DNA from: an uncultured Verrucomicrobia subdivision 3 bacterium
Lineage (GTDB): Bacteria; Verrucomicrobiota; Verrucomicrobiia; Limisphaerales; UBA11358
Direction of reading: 5' to 3'
Length of the DNA: 64,000 bases
Assembly (NCBI GenBank): GCA_903835255.1
Contig: CAILMI010000063.1
Location: 1-64,000, forward strand
Positions 621-7,699 of the stretch are shown piece after piece. Both the position numbers and the translations under genes were made by a program. Within the stretch, counting starts at the first letter, position 1. Every line of letters begins with the position of its first letter. The notes beneath the pieces are model-generated. The model saw only the letters and a program-made list of their open reading frames with translations. It ran no database searches and was not told the origin of the DNA.

Positions 621-1256
621 TTAGGCGACTTCTTTTTGAATCCGCTCGACCTCTTCTTTGATCAATTCCGTCACGCGATGCTTGGCCAGATAGACTTGGT
701 TGAGGGAGACGACAAAGGTTTGGGCGACCCGCTCGGCCGGCCATTCCTTGTTCACGTAACAATCGAAGAGCTGGTATTGCTGCGGATCCACCCGGCGACG
801 GGCTTTGGCCAGGGCGGCACCGAGCAGATTGGTTTGCCATTCCTCCTCCCACAGACTTTCCAGCTCCGGCGGCACACCACAGGATTCCGCTGATGATGCC
901 CCCTCCCCGGGACCAGGCTCAATAGGCTCCTCGATGAGTTGGACCTGGGCCTGCCGTTTGCGCAACTGATCAGAGATCCGCCAGCGGGTCATGTTCAGCA
1001 GCCAAGCCTTGAAGGAGCCGAGGGCCGGATCGTATTTGAAACCGGGCATGTGCTTGGCGACCGATATCAGGGTGAGCTGCACCACCTCCTCCGCCTCGGT
1101 TTTTGTCATCCCGCGCTTGAGCGCCACGCCATAGATCAGCTGCCAGTAGGTGTCAAAAAAAACCTGCCAGCTGGCCTCATCCTGCCAGTCTTTCAGCCGG
1201 CGCAGCAGCGAGGCGCGCGTTGGAATTAATTCTTCAACCGGTTCCATTACAGCCAT
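621..1256 (-). CDS. ECF-family RNA polymerase sigma factor
   Basis: This 211-residue protein has the two helical regions of an extracytoplasmic-function sigma factor. Region 2 spans about residues 25-100 (WQVFFDTYWQLIYGVA, EAEEVVQLTLISVAKH, then FKAWLLNMTRWRISDQLRKR) and would contact core polymerase and the -10 element. Region 4 (about residues 170-205) is a helix-turn-helix that would read the -35 element. A linker of about 40 residues, rich in Glu, Pro and Gly, joins them. It is transcribed divergently from the FecR-domain gene starting near 1479, which is the usual type of partner for FecI-like sigma factors, so the two probably form a signalling pair (inferred). No separate cytoplasmic anti-sigma gene is visible. 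An in-frame ATG three codons later is an alternative start. The stop codon abuts a truncated intergenic repeat copy. Confidence 0.85.
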   Translation of the reverse strand: MAVMEPVEELIPTRASLLRRLKDWQDEASWQVFFDTYWQLIYGVALKRGMTKTEAEEVVQLTLISVAKHMPGFKYDPALGSFKAWLLNMTRWRISDQLRKRQAQVQLIEEPIEPGPGEGASSAESCGVPPELESLWEEEWQTNLLGAALAKARRRVDPQQYQLFDCYVNKEWPAERVAQTFVVSLNQVYLAKHRVTELIKEEVERIQKEVA

Positions 1257-1379: not shown

Positions 1380-1478
1380 CATCAAGCAATCATGGGAGAT
1401 CAAGCAATCATGGGAGATCAAGCAATCATGGGAGATCAAGCAATCATGGGAGATCAAGCAATCATGGGAGATCAAGTG
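1380..1478 (+). repeat. 18-base tandem repeat reiterating an SD-like motif and an in-frame ATG
   Basis: The unit ATGGGAGATCAAGCAATC is repeated head to tail with ATGs at 1392, 1410, 1428, 1446 and 1464; the last unit is altered to GATCAAGTG before a sixth ATG at 1479. A partial unit precedes the first. As 18 is a multiple of three, all six ATGs are in the frame of the FecR-TPR-barrel gene. Each unit also has GGGAG. Upstream of the repeat ATGs this lies 11 bases from the start, but before ATG 1479 the distance is 8 bases, so 1479 has the best ribosome-binding site. Copy-number change would alter leader or N-terminal length without breaking the frame. Confidence 0.85.
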
Positions 1479-4400
1479 ATGGCGGGATTCCCGGTGGCGA
1501 GGCGACCTGGATTGTTCCGGGTTGGGGCTTTTTTGGGGATGCTGATTTGGTCGTTGAATTGTCCGGCCCAGACTTCCGTGCCCGACACCAACGCCATCCG
1601 TATTGTGGAGTTCCAGGGCACAGTGGAGGTGGCATCCGCGGGGGCTGCGGTCTGGACTCCGGTCCACAAACAGCGGTCACTGCATCCCTTGGACCGCATC
1701 CGCACCGCCGCCGCCAGCCGCGTGGCCCTGCGCTGGTCCGACCAGAGCATCGTGTCTTTCGGCGCGTCCACCGAGCTGGAGATCCTGCCGCCGGAGGCAC
1801 CCGGCTCCCAGTCCGGCCTCCACCTGATCCGCGGCCTGCTCTCCTTTTTCCATCGCGATCAGCCCGGCCGCATCCGCGTGCTCACGCGCGGCGCGGTGGC
1901 GGGGGTGGAGGGGACGGAATTCGTGATCGCGGTGAACGACGCCGAGGCCACCACGCTGTCGGTGGTGGATGGCCGAGTGAGATTCGGGAATGACCGGGCC
2001 ACGCTGGTCCTGACCAATGGGCAACAGGCTATCCTGGAATTGGGGCAGGAGCCCGTGCGCACGGCCGGCTTCATCGCCAACAACCTCCTGCAATGGTGCT
2101 TTTATTATCCGGCGGTGCTGGACCCGGGCGAACTGCCGCTCACGGAGGAGGAGCTAAAAACCCTTGCCGCCTCCCTGGAGGCGTATCGCTCCGGCGATGT
2201 GCTGCAGGCGCTGGCCCGCTGCCCCGAGATTCCTGCCGGGGCTTCCGACGGGATGTGGATTTATCTCGCCGCACTGCTGCTGTCGGTGGGCGAGGTGGAA
2301 AAAACCGAGGCGATTCTGTCAGCACATGCCACCTCAGCAGAGCGGTCCTGGCGGCTGTCCCAGGCGCTGCGCCAGCTCATCGCCGCCGTGAAGCGGCAGC
2401 CCCCGGCGATGACCCGTCCGCCGCAGCTCGCATCGGAGTTCCTGGCGCAGTCTTATTATGAGCAAGCGGGCGCCGTGCGCGAACTATCGCTGAAGAAGGC
2501 GCTGGGGCTTGCCAGAGAGGCGGCGGCGCGCGCGCCGGAATCCGGCTTTGCCTGGGAGCGGGTGGCGGAACTGGAGTTCTGTTTTGGGCGCCTGCCGGAG
2601 GCGATGGCCGCGCTGAACCGGAGCCTGTCGCTGGCGCCGCGCAATGCGCAGGCGCTGGCGCTGAGGGGATTCATTCTGTTGGCGCAAAACAAGCCGCGCG
2701 AGGCGCTGGCCCGTTTCAATAAGGCGCTGGCCACCGATGCGGCGCTGGGGAACGCGTGGCTCGGCCGAGGATTGAGCCGCATCCGCACCGGCAACGGCCC
2801 GGGCGGGCGCGAGGACTTGCTGGTGGCCGCCGCGCTGGAGCCGCAGCGCGCCGAGCTGCGGAGCTACCTGGGCAAGGCCTATCTGGCAAAGCGCGACGAC
2901 GCGAACGCGGCCCGGGAGCTGGCGCGGGCAAAGGGGCTCGACCCCAAAGACCCCACCGCCTGGCTGTATTCCGCACTACAGAACCAGCAGAACAACCGGA
3001 TCAACGCCGCCATCCGGGACCTTGAAAAATCTCAGGCGCTGAACGACAACCGCAGCGTATTCCGGTCGCAGCTGCTGCTGGACCAGGACCAGTCGGTACG
3101 CAGCGCAAACCTCGCGAGCATGTATCAGGACGCGGGCATGGCCGACGTGAGCCTCCGCGAAGCCGGGCGAGCGGTGACTTATGACTATGCGAACTACTCC
3201 GCGCACTTGTTTTTGGCCAACAGCTACTCCCAGCTCCGCGCATTGAACTATGGGAACGACCGCTACGGGACACCGTCCACCAGCGAGTTTCTAGTGGCCA
3301 ACCTGCTGGCGCCGGCCAATGCCGGCGTGATGACGCCGCTGATGGCGCAGCAGCCTTACACCCAGCTCTTTGATCAGAACCGGGTCGGCGTGATTTCCGA
3401 ATCCACCTATTTAAGCCGGGGCTCCTGGCAGGAATCCGGCGCGCAGTATGGCGTCTATGACAATTTCAGCTATCTCTTCGAGGCGGACTATTATTCCGAT
3501 CCCGGCCAGACTTGGAACGATTCCGTAGAGAACCAAACCCTCAGTTTGACCGTCAAAAACCAGCTTACCTCCCAGGACAGTTTTTTTGTCTGGGTGCAGC
3601 AGCACCGGCAAACCGCCGAAAATTTACAAGACTATTACGACCCGTCGCTTTTGAAGCCCAGCGATGACCCCCTGCAGCGCCCCCCCAGCCCCAGCCATAG
3701 CGAGCAAACGCAGAATCCGAATCTGCAGGTGGGGTATCACCACGAATGGGGGCCGGGGTCGCACACGCTGTTCCTGGCCTCGCGGTATACGCCGCACCTG
3801 ACCCAGTCCCAAAGCAACACGACCCAGGAAGCGGCGGCCTATTTCGATGGCAGTTTTGGGGGCAACGCTCCGCTCTTTCTCAATGTAAACGCCCAGATTG
3901 ACTGGACGATTCATTCCACCGAACTCCAGCAAATCCTCCAGACCGCCGAGCACACGACCATTGTGGGCACGCGCTTCCAATGGGGCAGCACCCATCTGAA
4001 GAACACGGAAGATTCCAACGGGTCGATCGACTGGAACGGGTGGTGCGGGGGCCTTTTCGGGCAGACTTATCCGATCATGACAGACCAGGACATCGATTTG
4101 AATTTTTATCATTACAACGGCTATGCCTATCACACCTGGCAGATCGCGGACCCGCTGACGCTGACGGCCGGGCTGGATTATGACTGGCTGCAGGAGCCCG
4201 CCAACACGGCCAGCTTACCGGGCACAGACAAGAACAAAACGAAAGCGCAAGTATCGCCCAAAGCCGGATTCATCTGGACCCCTGCGGAACGGACCGTGGT
4301 CCGGAGCGCCTACACCCGGTCCCTGTCGGGATACGGCCTCGCCCAGAGCTTGCGGCTGGAACCGACGGAGGTGGCCGGCTTCAATCAGGCCTTTCGCGAA

Positions 4401-5090
4401 CTGATACCGCCCTCCGTGCTGGGCGATACCAGCGGGTCCACGTTTGACACGGCGGATATTTCCATTGAACAGCGATTTGAAACCGGCACCTACCTGGCCT
4501 TGTCGGGCCAGCTTTACTATTCGCAACTGGACACCCTGCAGGGCGGGTTTGTCCTGAACGAAGAAGACGTAAACAGCGACAATCAACAGCCCAAACCGAG
4601 GGGATTCCAGCAGACCCAGAATTTCTGTGAAAAATCGGTCGTTTTAAGCGTCAACCAGCTTCTGGGCGAACAATGGTCGGCCGGAGCTCTCTACCGGCTC
4701 TCCCAAGCCGAGCTGGATTTGAAATACCCCGAATTCAACTTTCGCGACATGTATAACCTGCGAGAACCTTTCTATATCCGGCAGACATTGGAGAGCGTCC
4801 TGAACACGGTGAACCTGCACGCCAACTGGAACCATCCCTGCGGCCTCTTCTCCGCCCTCGACGGGAGCTGGTATCACCAAAACAATTCAGGCTTCACGCC
4901 GGCGGAACCCGGGGACGATTTCTGGAAATTCAATGCGTTCGCCGGCTACCGGATGTGGCACCGGCGCGTGGAGCTCACGCTCGGGCTGCTGAACATCTTC
5001 GACAAGGGATACAAGTTGGAGCCGCTGAATTTCAACAATGAAACGGCTCACAGCCGGACGTTTCTCGTCCGGGTGCGCATCAACTTCTGA
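1479..5090 (+). CDS. FecR domain - TPR - outer-membrane beta-barrel fusion protein
   Basis: With the start at 1479 the protein has 1203 residues. The start was chosen because it gives a normal signal peptide (MAGFPVARR then a hydrophobic run ending CPAQT) and the best SD spacing; the frame is open 29 codons further up through the 18-base repeat. A FecR-like domain follows (about residues 40-165; motifs LHPLDRIRTAAASRVALRWS and GAVAGVEGTEFVI). Next come tetratricopeptide repeats (about 320-600; for example AWERVAELEFCFGRLPEAMA). The last 580 residues look like a TonB-receptor-type beta-barrel without a plug: alternating aromatic strands and a terminal Phe (FLVRVRINF). It probably sits in the outer membrane with FecR and TPR parts in the periplasm (inferred). 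Its neighbours are a divergent ECF sigma factor and, downstream, a CHASE2 kinase, which suggests envelope signalling. The ligand is unknown. Confidence 0.8.
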   Translation: MAGFPVARRPGLFRVGAFLGMLIWSLNCPAQTSVPDTNAIRIVEFQGTVEVASAGAAVWTPVHKQRSLHPLDRIRTAAASRVALRWSDQSIVSFGASTELEILPPEAPGSQSGLHLIRGLLSFFHRDQPGRIRVLTRGAVAGVEGTEFVIAVNDAEATTLSVVDGRVRFGNDRATLVLTNGQQAILELGQEPVRTAGFIANNLLQWCFYYPAVLDPGELPLTEEELKTLAASLEAYRSGDVLQALARCPEIPAGASDGMWIYLAALLLSVGEVEKTEAILSAHATSAERSWRLSQALRQLIAAVKRQPPAMTRPPQLASEFLAQSYYEQAGAVRELSLKKALGLAREAAARAPESGFAWERVAELEFCFGRLPEAMAALNRSLSLAPRNAQALALRGFILLAQNKPREALARFNKALATDAALGNAWLGRGLSRIRTGNGPGGREDLLVAAALEPQRAELRSYLGKAYLAKRDDANAARELARAKGLDPKDPTAWLYSALQNQQNNRINAAIRDLEKSQALNDNRSVFRSQLLLDQDQSVRSANLASMYQDAGMADVSLREAGRAVTYDYANYSAHLFLANSYSQLRALNYGNDRYGTPSTSEFLVANLLAPANAGVMTPLMAQQPYTQLFDQNRVGVISESTYLSRGSWQESGAQYGVYDNFSYLFEADYYSDPGQTWNDSVENQTLSLTVKNQLTSQDSFFVWVQQHRQTAENLQDYYDPSLLKPSDDPLQRPPSPSHSEQTQNPNLQVGYHHEWGPGSHTLFLASRYTPHLTQSQSNTTQEAAAYFDGSFGGNAPLFLNVNAQIDWTIHSTELQQILQTAEHTTIVGTRFQWGSTHLKNTEDSNGSIDWNGWCGGLFGQTYPIMTDQDIDLNFYHYNGYAYHTWQIADPLTLTAGLDYDWLQEPANTASLPGTDKNKTKAQVSPKAGFIWTPAERTVVRSAYTRSLSGYGLAQSLRLEPTEVAGFNQAFRELIPPSVLGDTSGSTFDTADISIEQRFETGTYLALSGQLYYSQLDTLQGGFVLNEEDVNSDNQQPKPRGFQQTQNFCEKSVVLSVNQLLGEQWSAGALYRLSQAELDLKYPEFNFRDMYNLREPFYIRQTLESVLNTVNLHANWNHPCGLFSALDGSWYHQNNSGFTPAEPGDDFWKFNAFAGYRMWHRRVELTLGLLNIFDKGYKLEPLNFNNETAHSRTFLVRVRINF

Positions 5091-5096
5091 AAGCGG

Positions 5097-5555
5097 TCAT
5101 TGCCAGGTGACTTTCAAGGTCATCGGCTGGCCGTTGGTCGGCGGCGGCAGCGAGCTTTTGACGTAAACCGTCAGCGAATACTGCGCGCCATTGGTCACAG
5201 GAAACGTCACGCTGTTGGTGTCGCACCAGCTTGAAAAACCGCCATTACGCGCCACCCTTGCGACCGAGACATAGGGCGCGGCAAAGCCCGAGGCGTCTGT
5301 GAACGTGCCGCGGATGGTGTTCGTGGGCGGCGTGAGAAAAAACGTGCCGGCGCTGTTGGTCATTCTGGCAAGACCGGTATAGGTGCCGGAACAGCCGATC
5401 CCGCTGCCGCCGGGAGTGGCGTTAAAAACCGCCGATTGCTGGGTGGTGCTGGTTGAGGTCAGCGCAGGGGTTTTGCAGCCGGTGAGGGCCGACAGGGCGA
5501 GCGCCACGGCGGCGCTGAGGACGACCCAAGTTGTTTTTGAAGGGATTGTTTTCAT
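5097..5555 (-). CDS. Small predicted lipoprotein, function unknown
   Basis: This 152-residue protein converges on the FecR-barrel gene, with only six bases between the stops. The start at 5555 gives a clear lipoprotein signal: MKTIPSK, a hydrophobic stretch, then a lipobox LTGC at about residue 30. The frame is open further upstream, but that part is Pro/Arg-rich and overlaps the kinase promoter region. The mature part is Thr/Ser-rich and resembles a single beta-sandwich: it contains GTFTDASGFAAPYVSVARV and ends in alternating strands (QYSLTVYVKSSL, MTLKVTWQ). Two Cys in GIGCSG and SSWCDT could pair. I do not recognise the family. Its position between the FecR-barrel and the CHASE2 kinase makes an envelope role likely, which is inference from position only. 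Confidence 0.65.
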   Translation of the reverse strand: MKTIPSKTTWVVLSAAVALALSALTGCKTPALTSTSTTQQSAVFNATPGGSGIGCSGTYTGLARMTNSAGTFFLTPPTNTIRGTFTDASGFAAPYVSVARVARNGGFSSWCDTNSVTFPVTNGAQYSLTVYVKSSLPPPTNGQPMTLKVTWQ

Positions 5556-5680: not shown

Positions 5681-7699
5681 GTGCCCGCACAAGTCCGCAT
5701 GAGGTTCGCCATCCACAACCCATCCCTTCGCCGGTCCGTATTCGGCGCGGCTCTGGCCGGGCTGGCGGGCCTGCTGCTCTGGGGCACCTCTCCCGGCGAG
5801 CCGTGGGCCAATGCCAGCTACGATTTCCTGTTCCGGTTCGGTTCGCGCGCCGTCACCAACCGGGTGACGCTCCTCCTGATGGACAATGCGGCCTTCGACC
5901 AGCTCCACCAGGCGCGCGGTCAGCCGTGGGACCGGGCGCTGCACGCGCAGCTGCTGAACCGGCTGGCTGACGACGGCTGCGAGCTGGTGGTGATGGACTC
6001 CTTTTTCCGGGAAGCGCGCGACCCGAAAAAAGACGACGCGCTCGCCGCGGCGATGCGTCGGCAGCGGCATCTGGTGCTCATGGCCGAACAGTCGCAGGTA
6101 ACGCATCCCGGGCTGGTGGGCGCGCAACCCGTGCCGCCGCTGGGAACTTTCCGGGAAGCCGCCGGCCAGCATTGGGGCGTGGCGTGGCTGGACCCGGACC
6201 TCGACGGCATTGTCCGCCGGCAGTGGCCGTTTCCCAATCCGGGGCCGTATCCGAGCCTGCCGTGGATGGCCGCGCAACAGGCGGGCGCCCGGCTCGAGGC
6301 ATCCCCCCAGAAACGCTGGCTGCGGTACTACGGCGCGGCCGGCGCCTGGACGCGCCTGAGCTATCCGTTTGCGCTGGATCGGCCGCCCGGTTATTTCCGG
6401 GGTCAAATCGTCTTCATCGGCACGGCGCCCCACACCACCGTGCCCGGCGGCGAAACGGACAAATTCTCAACTCCCTACACGCGATGGACAGGCGAAGCCT
6501 CCGGCGGCGCGGACATCCTGATCACCGCGTTCCTCAACCTGCTGAACGACGACTCCCTGCAACGTCCGCCGGCGGGAATGGAACTGGCACTGCTGACGCT
6601 GGCAGGAATGATTCTCGGGGCCGGCCTGGGGCGTCTGACACCATGGGCGGCGTGCGGGGTGGCTGCGGTGATTTTCCTGACGGTGACGGTGGCGGGCGTC
6701 TGGCTGAGCCATTTTTCCCACTACTGGTTTCCCTGGCTGATCATCGGCGGCGGACAGCTGCCGTGCGCCCTGGCGTGGGCGGTGGTTACGGGCTGGCGGC
6801 GCGCGCCGGGACCGATCGGGACGGCACGGGACCCCCTGCCGGAGACGCCCGGCTACGAATTTTTTTCCTCGCCCTTTGCGGAGGGAGCTTATGGCAAGGT
6901 ATGGCTGGCGCGGAACGCCGACGGGGAATGGCGGGCTTTGAAGGTCATCTCCCTGGCGCAATTTGACGGCGACGCCGATCCGTACGAACGCGAATTCGAG
7001 GGGATCCGGAAATACCAGCCCGTTTCCGGCCGCCATCCCGGCCTGTTGCGGGTGGATTTTGTCAGCGAAAAAAAGGCGGGCTATTTTTATTACGTCATGG
7101 AGCTGGGCGATGCCATTGCGCCGGGCTGGGAAGAGAATCCCGCGCTGTATCAGCCGCGCAATCTGGTGAGCGAACGGGCCCAGCTGCGGGGCCGCCGGCT
7201 GCCGGTGAGGACGTGCGTGGAGCTAGGGCTCAGCCTGAGCGAGGCCCTCGACTTTCTTCATGGACAGGGCCTGACGCACCGCGACATCAAGCCTCCGAAT
7301 ATTATTTTCGTGGGGGGCCGCCCCAAGCTGGCGGATCTGGGATTAATCACCGGCATCCGGGAGCTGGGGCACGAGGGCACGCTGGTGGGGACGCCCGGCT
7401 ACCTGCCGCCCGCGCCGGAACGGCCCGGCACGGTGCAGGCGGATATCTATTCGCTGGGCATGGTGCTGTACGTGCTGTGCACCGGCCGGGCAGCGGCGCT
7501 GTTTCCGGAGGTGGCCACCACGCTGGTGAGCGCGGGAGAACCGCCAGAATTTCTGCCCCTGAACCACGTCATCCTCAAAGCCTGCCAGCCGCTGCCGGAA
7601 GAGCGCTACGCTTCCGCCGCCAAAATGCGCGCGGCGCTGGAAACCGTTCGCGCCGCCTTGAGCACGGAATCGCCCACCGCCACGCCCTCCGCCGAGTGA
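5681..7699 (+). CDS. CHASE2-domain transmembrane serine/threonine protein kinase
   Basis: This 672-residue receptor kinase (ATG 5699 is a nearly equal alternative start) has an N-terminal membrane segment (about residues 19-40). An extracytoplasmic CHASE2 sensor follows (about 45-290; motifs NRVTLLLMDNAAFDQL, DDGCELVVMDSFFREA and FIGTAPHTTVPGGETDKFSTP). Three closely spaced membrane helices occupy about 305-380. The cytoplasmic kinase domain starts near 390 with a Gly-rich loop FAEGAYGKVWLA, the ATP-anchoring Lys in ALKVIS and the catalytic loop HRDIKPPNIIF near 533. The metal-binding motif is DLG instead of DFG, and GTPGYLPPAPE forms the P+1 region. Catalytic residues are intact, so it should be active. 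It lies next to a FecR-domain protein, so the two may share an envelope-sensing circuit (inferred). Substrates are unknown. Confidence 0.88.
   Translation: MPAQVRMRFAIHNPSLRRSVFGAALAGLAGLLLWGTSPGEPWANASYDFLFRFGSRAVTNRVTLLLMDNAAFDQLHQARGQPWDRALHAQLLNRLADDGCELVVMDSFFREARDPKKDDALAAAMRRQRHLVLMAEQSQVTHPGLVGAQPVPPLGTFREAAGQHWGVAWLDPDLDGIVRRQWPFPNPGPYPSLPWMAAQQAGARLEASPQKRWLRYYGAAGAWTRLSYPFALDRPPGYFRGQIVFIGTAPHTTVPGGETDKFSTPYTRWTGEASGGADILITAFLNLLNDDSLQRPPAGMELALLTLAGMILGAGLGRLTPWAACGVAAVIFLTVTVAGVWLSHFSHYWFPWLIIGGGQLPCALAWAVVTGWRRAPGPIGTARDPLPETPGYEFFSSPFAEGAYGKVWLARNADGEWRALKVISLAQFDGDADPYEREFEGIRKYQPVSGRHPGLLRVDFVSEKKAGYFYYVMELGDAIAPGWEENPALYQPRNLVSERAQLRGRRLPVRTCVELGLSLSEALDFLHGQGLTHRDIKPPNIIFVGGRPKLADLGLITGIRELGHEGTLVGTPGYLPPAPERPGTVQADIYSLGMVLYVLCTGRAAALFPEVATTLVSAGEPPEFLPLNHVILKACQPLPEERYASAAKMRAALETVRAALSTESPTATPSAE

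Follow-up and report, generated by a model that had tools for sequence, protein, structure and literature searches.

A verrucomicrobial FecR-TPR-barrel protein encoded beside a CHASE2 Ser/Thr kinase and an ECF sigma factor: a probable variant of the NsrA-type receptor module

NsrA of Sinorhizobium meliloti is an outer-membrane receptor for a plant signal, with its barrel in residues 600-1200, on which the CHASE2 cyclase CyaK depends to perceive that signal (PMC7529298, PMC10463352, PMC13001267). A periplasmic FecR protein also lies beside a CHASE2 sensor in the BiofilmReg operon of Burkholderia, where FecR is joined to LysM and not to a TPR-barrel, and the output is two-component (CHASE2 histidine kinase and response regulator); operons with LysM-FecR and a CHASE2 histidine kinase are published for Burkholderiales and Pseudomonas, including P. 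aeruginosa, and CHASE2 is described as a common sensor domain whose signals are unknown (PMC5192318). In the ECF43 group (EcfP/PknT, EcfK/PknS) an ECF sigma factor is encoded beside a membrane Ser/Thr kinase, with no anti-sigma factor seen, and is activated by threonine phosphorylation (PMC8999054, PMC13147305), the acidic DAED-type motif of region 2.2 being replaced by a phosphorylatable Thr (PMC8999054). FecI/FecR/FecA systems, finally, bring together a FecR domain, a TonB-receptor-type barrel and an ECF sigma factor in one locus.

The locus described here shares features with each of these. It lies in a window of 64,000 nucleotides (the whole stretch of DNA analysed; bases 1-64000 of contig C63) from a soil/freshwater Verrucomicrobium whose genome of 3.17 Mb is 97% complete, and whose close relatives are metagenome-assembled genomes labelled Limisphaerales or Verrucomicrobia subdivision 3. 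The kind of receptor is known from NsrA; what is new is the Ser/Thr kinase and ECF sigma factor in place of the usual cAMP-making enzyme. This combination of FecR-TPR-barrel, sigma factor and kinase is not a product of chance, because the architecture and its neighbours were found again in dozens of genomes. Computation establishes the anatomy of the locus, its NsrA-type homology, the pairing with CHASE2 and the association of sigma factor with kinase.

Anatomy of the fusion protein and its neighbours

The genes follow one another in the order ECF sigma factor (621-1247/1256, divergent), fusion (1479-5090), small secreted protein (5097-5555, reverse strand) and CHASE2 Ser/Thr kinase (5699-7699), with the features collected in Table 1. 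The longest reading frame for the fusion spans 1392-5090 of the forward strand (1232 aa). ATG 1479 is nevertheless most likely the true start, since the region ahead of it (window 1381-1476) is a tandem array, missing from relatives, of 5.3 perfect copies of the unit ATCAAGCAATCATGGGAG, each with an in-frame ATG. This is possibly an expression-tuning repeat. Further upstream, at the contig end and adjoining the sigma gene, a 228-bp unit containing ACGAATTAC arrays is repeated about 2.7 times (positions 1-606).

Table 1. Features of the locus, in window coordinates.
Feature	Position	Strand	Basis or remark
ECF sigma factor	621..1256	-	Pfam, TIGR; start probably ATG 1247 (MEPVEELIPTRAS), as in relatives
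Promoter-like site TTGCCA-N17-TTTAAA	1256..1284	-	8 nt before ATG 1247
18-bp tandem repeat, 5.3 copies	1381..1476	+	just 5' of fusion start; relatives without it
FecR-TPR-barrel outer-membrane protein (NsrA-like), 1203 aa	1479..5090	+	Pfam, AlphaFold, fold search, profile comparison
Probable signal peptide	1479..1568	+	inferred from sequence
FecR domain (PF04773)	1692..1982	+	Pfam
TPR-type helical array	2070..3347	+	Pfam, AlphaFold
22-strand plugless TonB-receptor-like beta barrel	3381..5087	+	Pfam, AlphaFold, fold search
Small secreted protein or lipoprotein (LTGC)	5097..5555	-	predicted all-beta; conserved, between the fusion and CHASE2 genes
CHASE2 Ser/Thr kinase	5681..7699	+	start probably ATG 5699; HRDIKPPN and DLG motifs intact
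CHASE2 sensor domain	5765..6610	+	profile match
Transmembrane segments after CHASE2	6572..6706	+	two by hydropathy, a third probable just beyond
Protein kinase domain	6881..7492	+	PF00069 match

Pfam profiles identify a FecR domain (E 1.5e-11), TPRs at about residues 387-555 of the 1232-aa frame (best match TPR_14, 25.3 bits and above cut-off; TPR_9 reaches 28.5 bits, below its own cut-off) and a TonB_dep_Rec_b-barrel domain (PF00593, E 1.6e-8) in the fusion, whose C-terminal residue is F. Plug, STN and FecR_N gave no Pfam match at E <= 1, all 19-residue hydropathy windows fell short of the hydrophobicity of a transmembrane helix, and the chain showed no cytoplasmic anti-sigma part. An AlphaFold model with 16 orthologues (mean pLDDT 67.6) consists of a beta region at residues 10-148, a helical array at 168-593 and 22 strands at 605-1172, in our count of the DSSP line; its FecR part is poorly modelled, so that the FecR call rests on Pfam. 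The best fold matches in the PDB are the TonB-dependent receptors Fiu, FhuE, OprC and FecA, and a Foldseek comparison with viral structures added nothing.

The kinase retains conserved catalytic HRD, DxG and Lys motifs and, with its CHASE2 domain and transmembrane segments, is a Hanks-type Ser/Thr kinase with CHASE2. In two metagenome genomes the corresponding gene (L037:12739-14735, L039:17010-19024) is spread over two reading frames, through a frameshift or an assembly error. The sigma factor matches Sigma70_r2 (E 8e-10) and TIGR02937 (64 bits over cut-off). The original prediction had seen a FecR domain, a TPR array and a plugless barrel on one chain that lacked a visible anti-sigma part, with an ECF sigma gene divergent to it and a CHASE2 Ser/Thr kinase gene downstream, and had suggested that the barrel itself might bear the signalling domain of the periplasm. 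All of this is borne out: by the Pfam domains and the lack of a plug match, by the AlphaFold barrel and its receptor-like PDB matches, by the missing FecR_N and transmembrane helix, by the two agreeing sigma profiles and by the CHASE2 and Pkinase domains of the neighbour.

CHASE2 as partner of FecR-TPR-barrel and other FecR proteins

The fusion occurs in 28/59 near relatives and in 132/320 genomes of the order. We inspected the flanks of about 100 loci, classing neighbours with profiles made from the window's own genes, and found a CHASE2 gene within 6.5 kb of the fusion in 64 of the 91 full-length verrucomicrobial loci. Its output domain is a cyclase in 33, a Ser/Thr kinase in 22 and a histidine kinase in five; one further locus has kinase and cyclase on one chain, and three are cut by a contig end. 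That composite, L136:10531-13671, joins Ser/Thr kinase, CHASE2 and cyclase in a single protein directly 3' of the FecR-TPR-barrel gene. CHASE2 is thus the usual partner of the fusion and the output is exchangeable, although the pairing is not strict, given that 27/91 loci have no CHASE2 gene within 6.5 kb (15 of these with 5 kb visible on both sides).

Profile comparison aligned the verrucomicrobial with the rhizobial fusions from the FecR domain to the end of the barrel (hhalign probability 99.7, E 1.7e-26, 1,016 columns). On pSymB of S. meliloti 1021, the only CHASE2 gene of the replicon, a cyclase, begins 3 nt after the FecR-TPR-barrel gene, and all 4/4 rhizobial megaplasmids have a single CHASE2 gene adjoining such a gene. 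Garnerone et al. (2018) reportedly placed nsrA immediately upstream of cyaK; as the replicon record has no gene table, the case for the pSymB gene being nsrA, made from replicon, size, domains and neighbour, is strong but indirect. Two Sinorhizobium megaplasmids carry second FecR-TPR-barrel genes besides the NsrA-type pair (L076:5848-9438, L078:5848-9438), with no CHASE2 gene nearby. The window thus has in common with NsrA-CyaK a protein of about 1,200 aa that combines FecR, TPRs and a barrel (the last in residues 600-1200), colinear homology over the full length and a CHASE2 enzyme encoded next door. It differs in having a Ser/Thr kinase and ECF sigma factor where NsrA-CyaK has an adenylate cyclase with Clr, and in an extra secreted protein; identity is about 19-25%. 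On account of the kinase output, a cyclase being present in 33 of the relatives' loci, we file the window as a variant of the NsrA/CHASE2 architecture and not as a member of NsrA-CyaK.

The most general outcome of the analysis extends beyond barrel proteins. Across 17 genomes, a FecR-domain gene lies no more than 10 kb from 28 of the 31 CHASE2 genes, where 0.36 would be expected from chance placement, and these FecR proteins are mostly without a barrel. In all, CHASE2 and FecR genes number two each in the genome of the window and form two adjacent pairs; in the second (C64:51242-54447, equivalent to L171:4243-7448), a 285-aa FecR-domain protein is encoded directly 5' of a CHASE2 cyclase. We suggest tentatively, at somewhat less than an even chance, that periplasmic FecR is the dedicated input to CHASE2 across phyla, and that in Verrucomicrobia it would link an outer-membrane receptor through CHASE2 and a Ser/Thr kinase to an ECF sigma factor, a path in which neither TonB-type cell-surface signalling nor an anti-sigma factor takes part.

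The divergent sigma factor and its link to the kinase output

CHASE2 is the constant partner of the fusion, and the sigma factor goes only with the kinase-output version. Counting loci with both flanks visible, an ECF sigma gene lies within 3 kb at 19/20 testable kinase loci as against 1/30 with other outputs (Fisher p 1.3e-11). The sole exception among the latter, L104, has a convergently oriented gene for another type of ECF, and one close relative, L032, has the kinase and no sigma factor. Four genomes (G033, G054, G057, G170) each hold a kinase-type and an other-type locus, with a sigma gene only at the former, and sigma also tracks kinase in L052, L058 and L118, which are separate lineages whose gene orders differ. 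The tree contains several changes of kinase state, but just four contrasts on its supported branches are independent (three agree, one has no difference, p 0.25), so that shared ancestry adds to the strength of the 19/20 versus 1/30 table. A different ECF type adjoins the kinase in L114 and L127. This second type (LCxxYWYPLYAYxRRxGH...) is found at L114:3726-4475, L127:8930-9700 and L120:1983-2798, where its neighbour is a CHASE2 kinase or a WD40 kinase, and it suggests that ECF factors were recruited more than once by these kinases.

As in ECF43, a kinase gene accompanies the sigma gene, here with the fusion gene between the two. Region 2.2 reads EAEEVVQLT in the window, however, and the acidic EAEE/EAQD residues, typically lacking in ECF43, are kept in the family; we therefore rejected the sigma factor as an ECF43 member. 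The EcfP switch is for the same reason not simply transferable, and the sigma factor, unlike EcfP, may be independent of phosphorylation. The sensor also differs, being a CHASE2 domain with an outer-membrane partner.

In about 14 relatives the sequence TTGCCA-N16/17-CATTA(C) occurs, as a rule 8-9 nt 5' of the sigma start codon, whereas two shifted spacings used as controls gave one match each; the -10 element of the window (TTTAAA) has diverged from this consensus. The motif is consistent with a conserved promoter whose transcript is leaderless; this may be the sigma factor's own promoter or could be a weak housekeeping one. A search for TTGCCA-N17-CATTA in 32 genomes returned 49 matches against 27 with shifted spacing; a single promoter with the conserved sequence was found per genome and the excess is mostly the sigma gene's own promoter, so that no regulon emerged. 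No second site at the fusion, secreted protein or kinase genes was convincing when scored with a matrix.

A candidate signalling route and its alternatives

We consider it probable that the locus encodes an envelope-spanning module of the NsrA/CHASE2 kind, in which the FecR domain of an outer-membrane receptor passes the signal to CHASE2 and the ECF sigma factor is the target of the kinase. The barrel, predicted in fold and assigned a function by analogy with NsrA, would sit in the outer membrane and recognise an external ligand; the TPR array and FecR domain would relay its state to the CHASE2 domain that the inner-membrane neighbour exposes in the periplasm, as gene linkage and the NsrA-CyaK precedent suggest. 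CHASE2 would govern an exchangeable cytoplasmic output, here the Hanks-type kinase, and the kinase would act on the genetically linked sigma factor, putatively by phosphorylation. The sigma factor would then redirect RNA polymerase, probably to its own promoter among others, giving autoregulation. The kinase, which the original prediction had raised as the possible true output, is the likely one, and the sigma and kinase neighbours are kept in relatives. The frame that this prediction took from FecR regulators contacting a TonB-dependent receptor was the wrong one: the FecR-CHASE2 pairing and the colinearity with the NsrA-type receptor show that FecR here is no remnant of a FecI/FecR/FecA relay.

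A condensed form of that relay, with the fusion as an anti-sigma/receptor hybrid acting directly on the sigma factor, would account for a FecR domain, a TonB-receptor-type barrel and an ECF sigma factor side by side. It is very unlikely: the cytoplasmic anti-sigma region, inner-membrane helix, plug and STN are all missing (for which we also rejected a FecIRA remnant), the partner is a CHASE2 enzyme, the sigma factor is absent from cyclase- and histidine-kinase-type relatives of the fusion, and FecR-CHASE2 gene pairs occur even without any barrel. Highly improbable, too, is an exporter of polysaccharide or protein of the BcsC/PgaA type whose activity the CHASE2 enzyme regulates. The barrel does directly follow the TPR array as in such exporters, but it has 22 strands and a TonB-receptor fold instead of a 16-strand exporter barrel, with no BCSC_C or PgaA match, and we discarded this assignment; polysaccharide genes are not among the most frequent neighbour families, and the FecR domain would be left unexplained.

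Receptor and CHASE2 kinase might instead form a module whose kinase has other targets, the sigma factor being constitutive or otherwise controlled. The retained acidic core-binding motif, the single conserved promoter per genome with no regulon visible, and the kinase without sigma in L032 would all sit well with this reading, which we regard as unlikely in view of how closely sigma tracks kinase output, including in L052, L058 and L118, and of L114 and L127, where another type of ECF adjoins the kinase. That the genes are merely independent neighbours in conserved synteny is scarcely credible. The members do come from one order, with few independent contrasts; yet swapped outputs, changed gene orders, recurrence in Alphaproteobacteria and the LysM-FecR operons of Burkholderiales and Pseudomonas (PMC5192318) indicate that the pairing is under selection.

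With near one-to-one pairing to FecR proteins that are anchored in the outer membrane by a barrel or linked to LysM (Burkholderia), the question of what CHASE2 senses would become directly testable: its signal may be a partner protein and not a free ligand. Cyclase, histidine kinase and Ser/Thr kinase outputs would be interchangeable behind one receptor, and kinase-activated sigma factors would, through the kinase/sigma version, come to include a system with an outer-membrane receptor.

The small secreted protein, a gene overlooked in the original prediction, belongs to a family present at 18 loci, some members having an Ig domain. Its fold model is all-beta and of low confidence, with no structural match below E 0.001; its conservation is consistent with a putative role as an accessory or ligand-side component. 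Large secreted proteins also recur near fusion loci, mostly those of cyclase or histidine-kinase type, and are a possible surface partner or ligand. L098:4987-11604, which has related reading frames in 16 other loci, combines Ig and SBBP beta-propeller domains.
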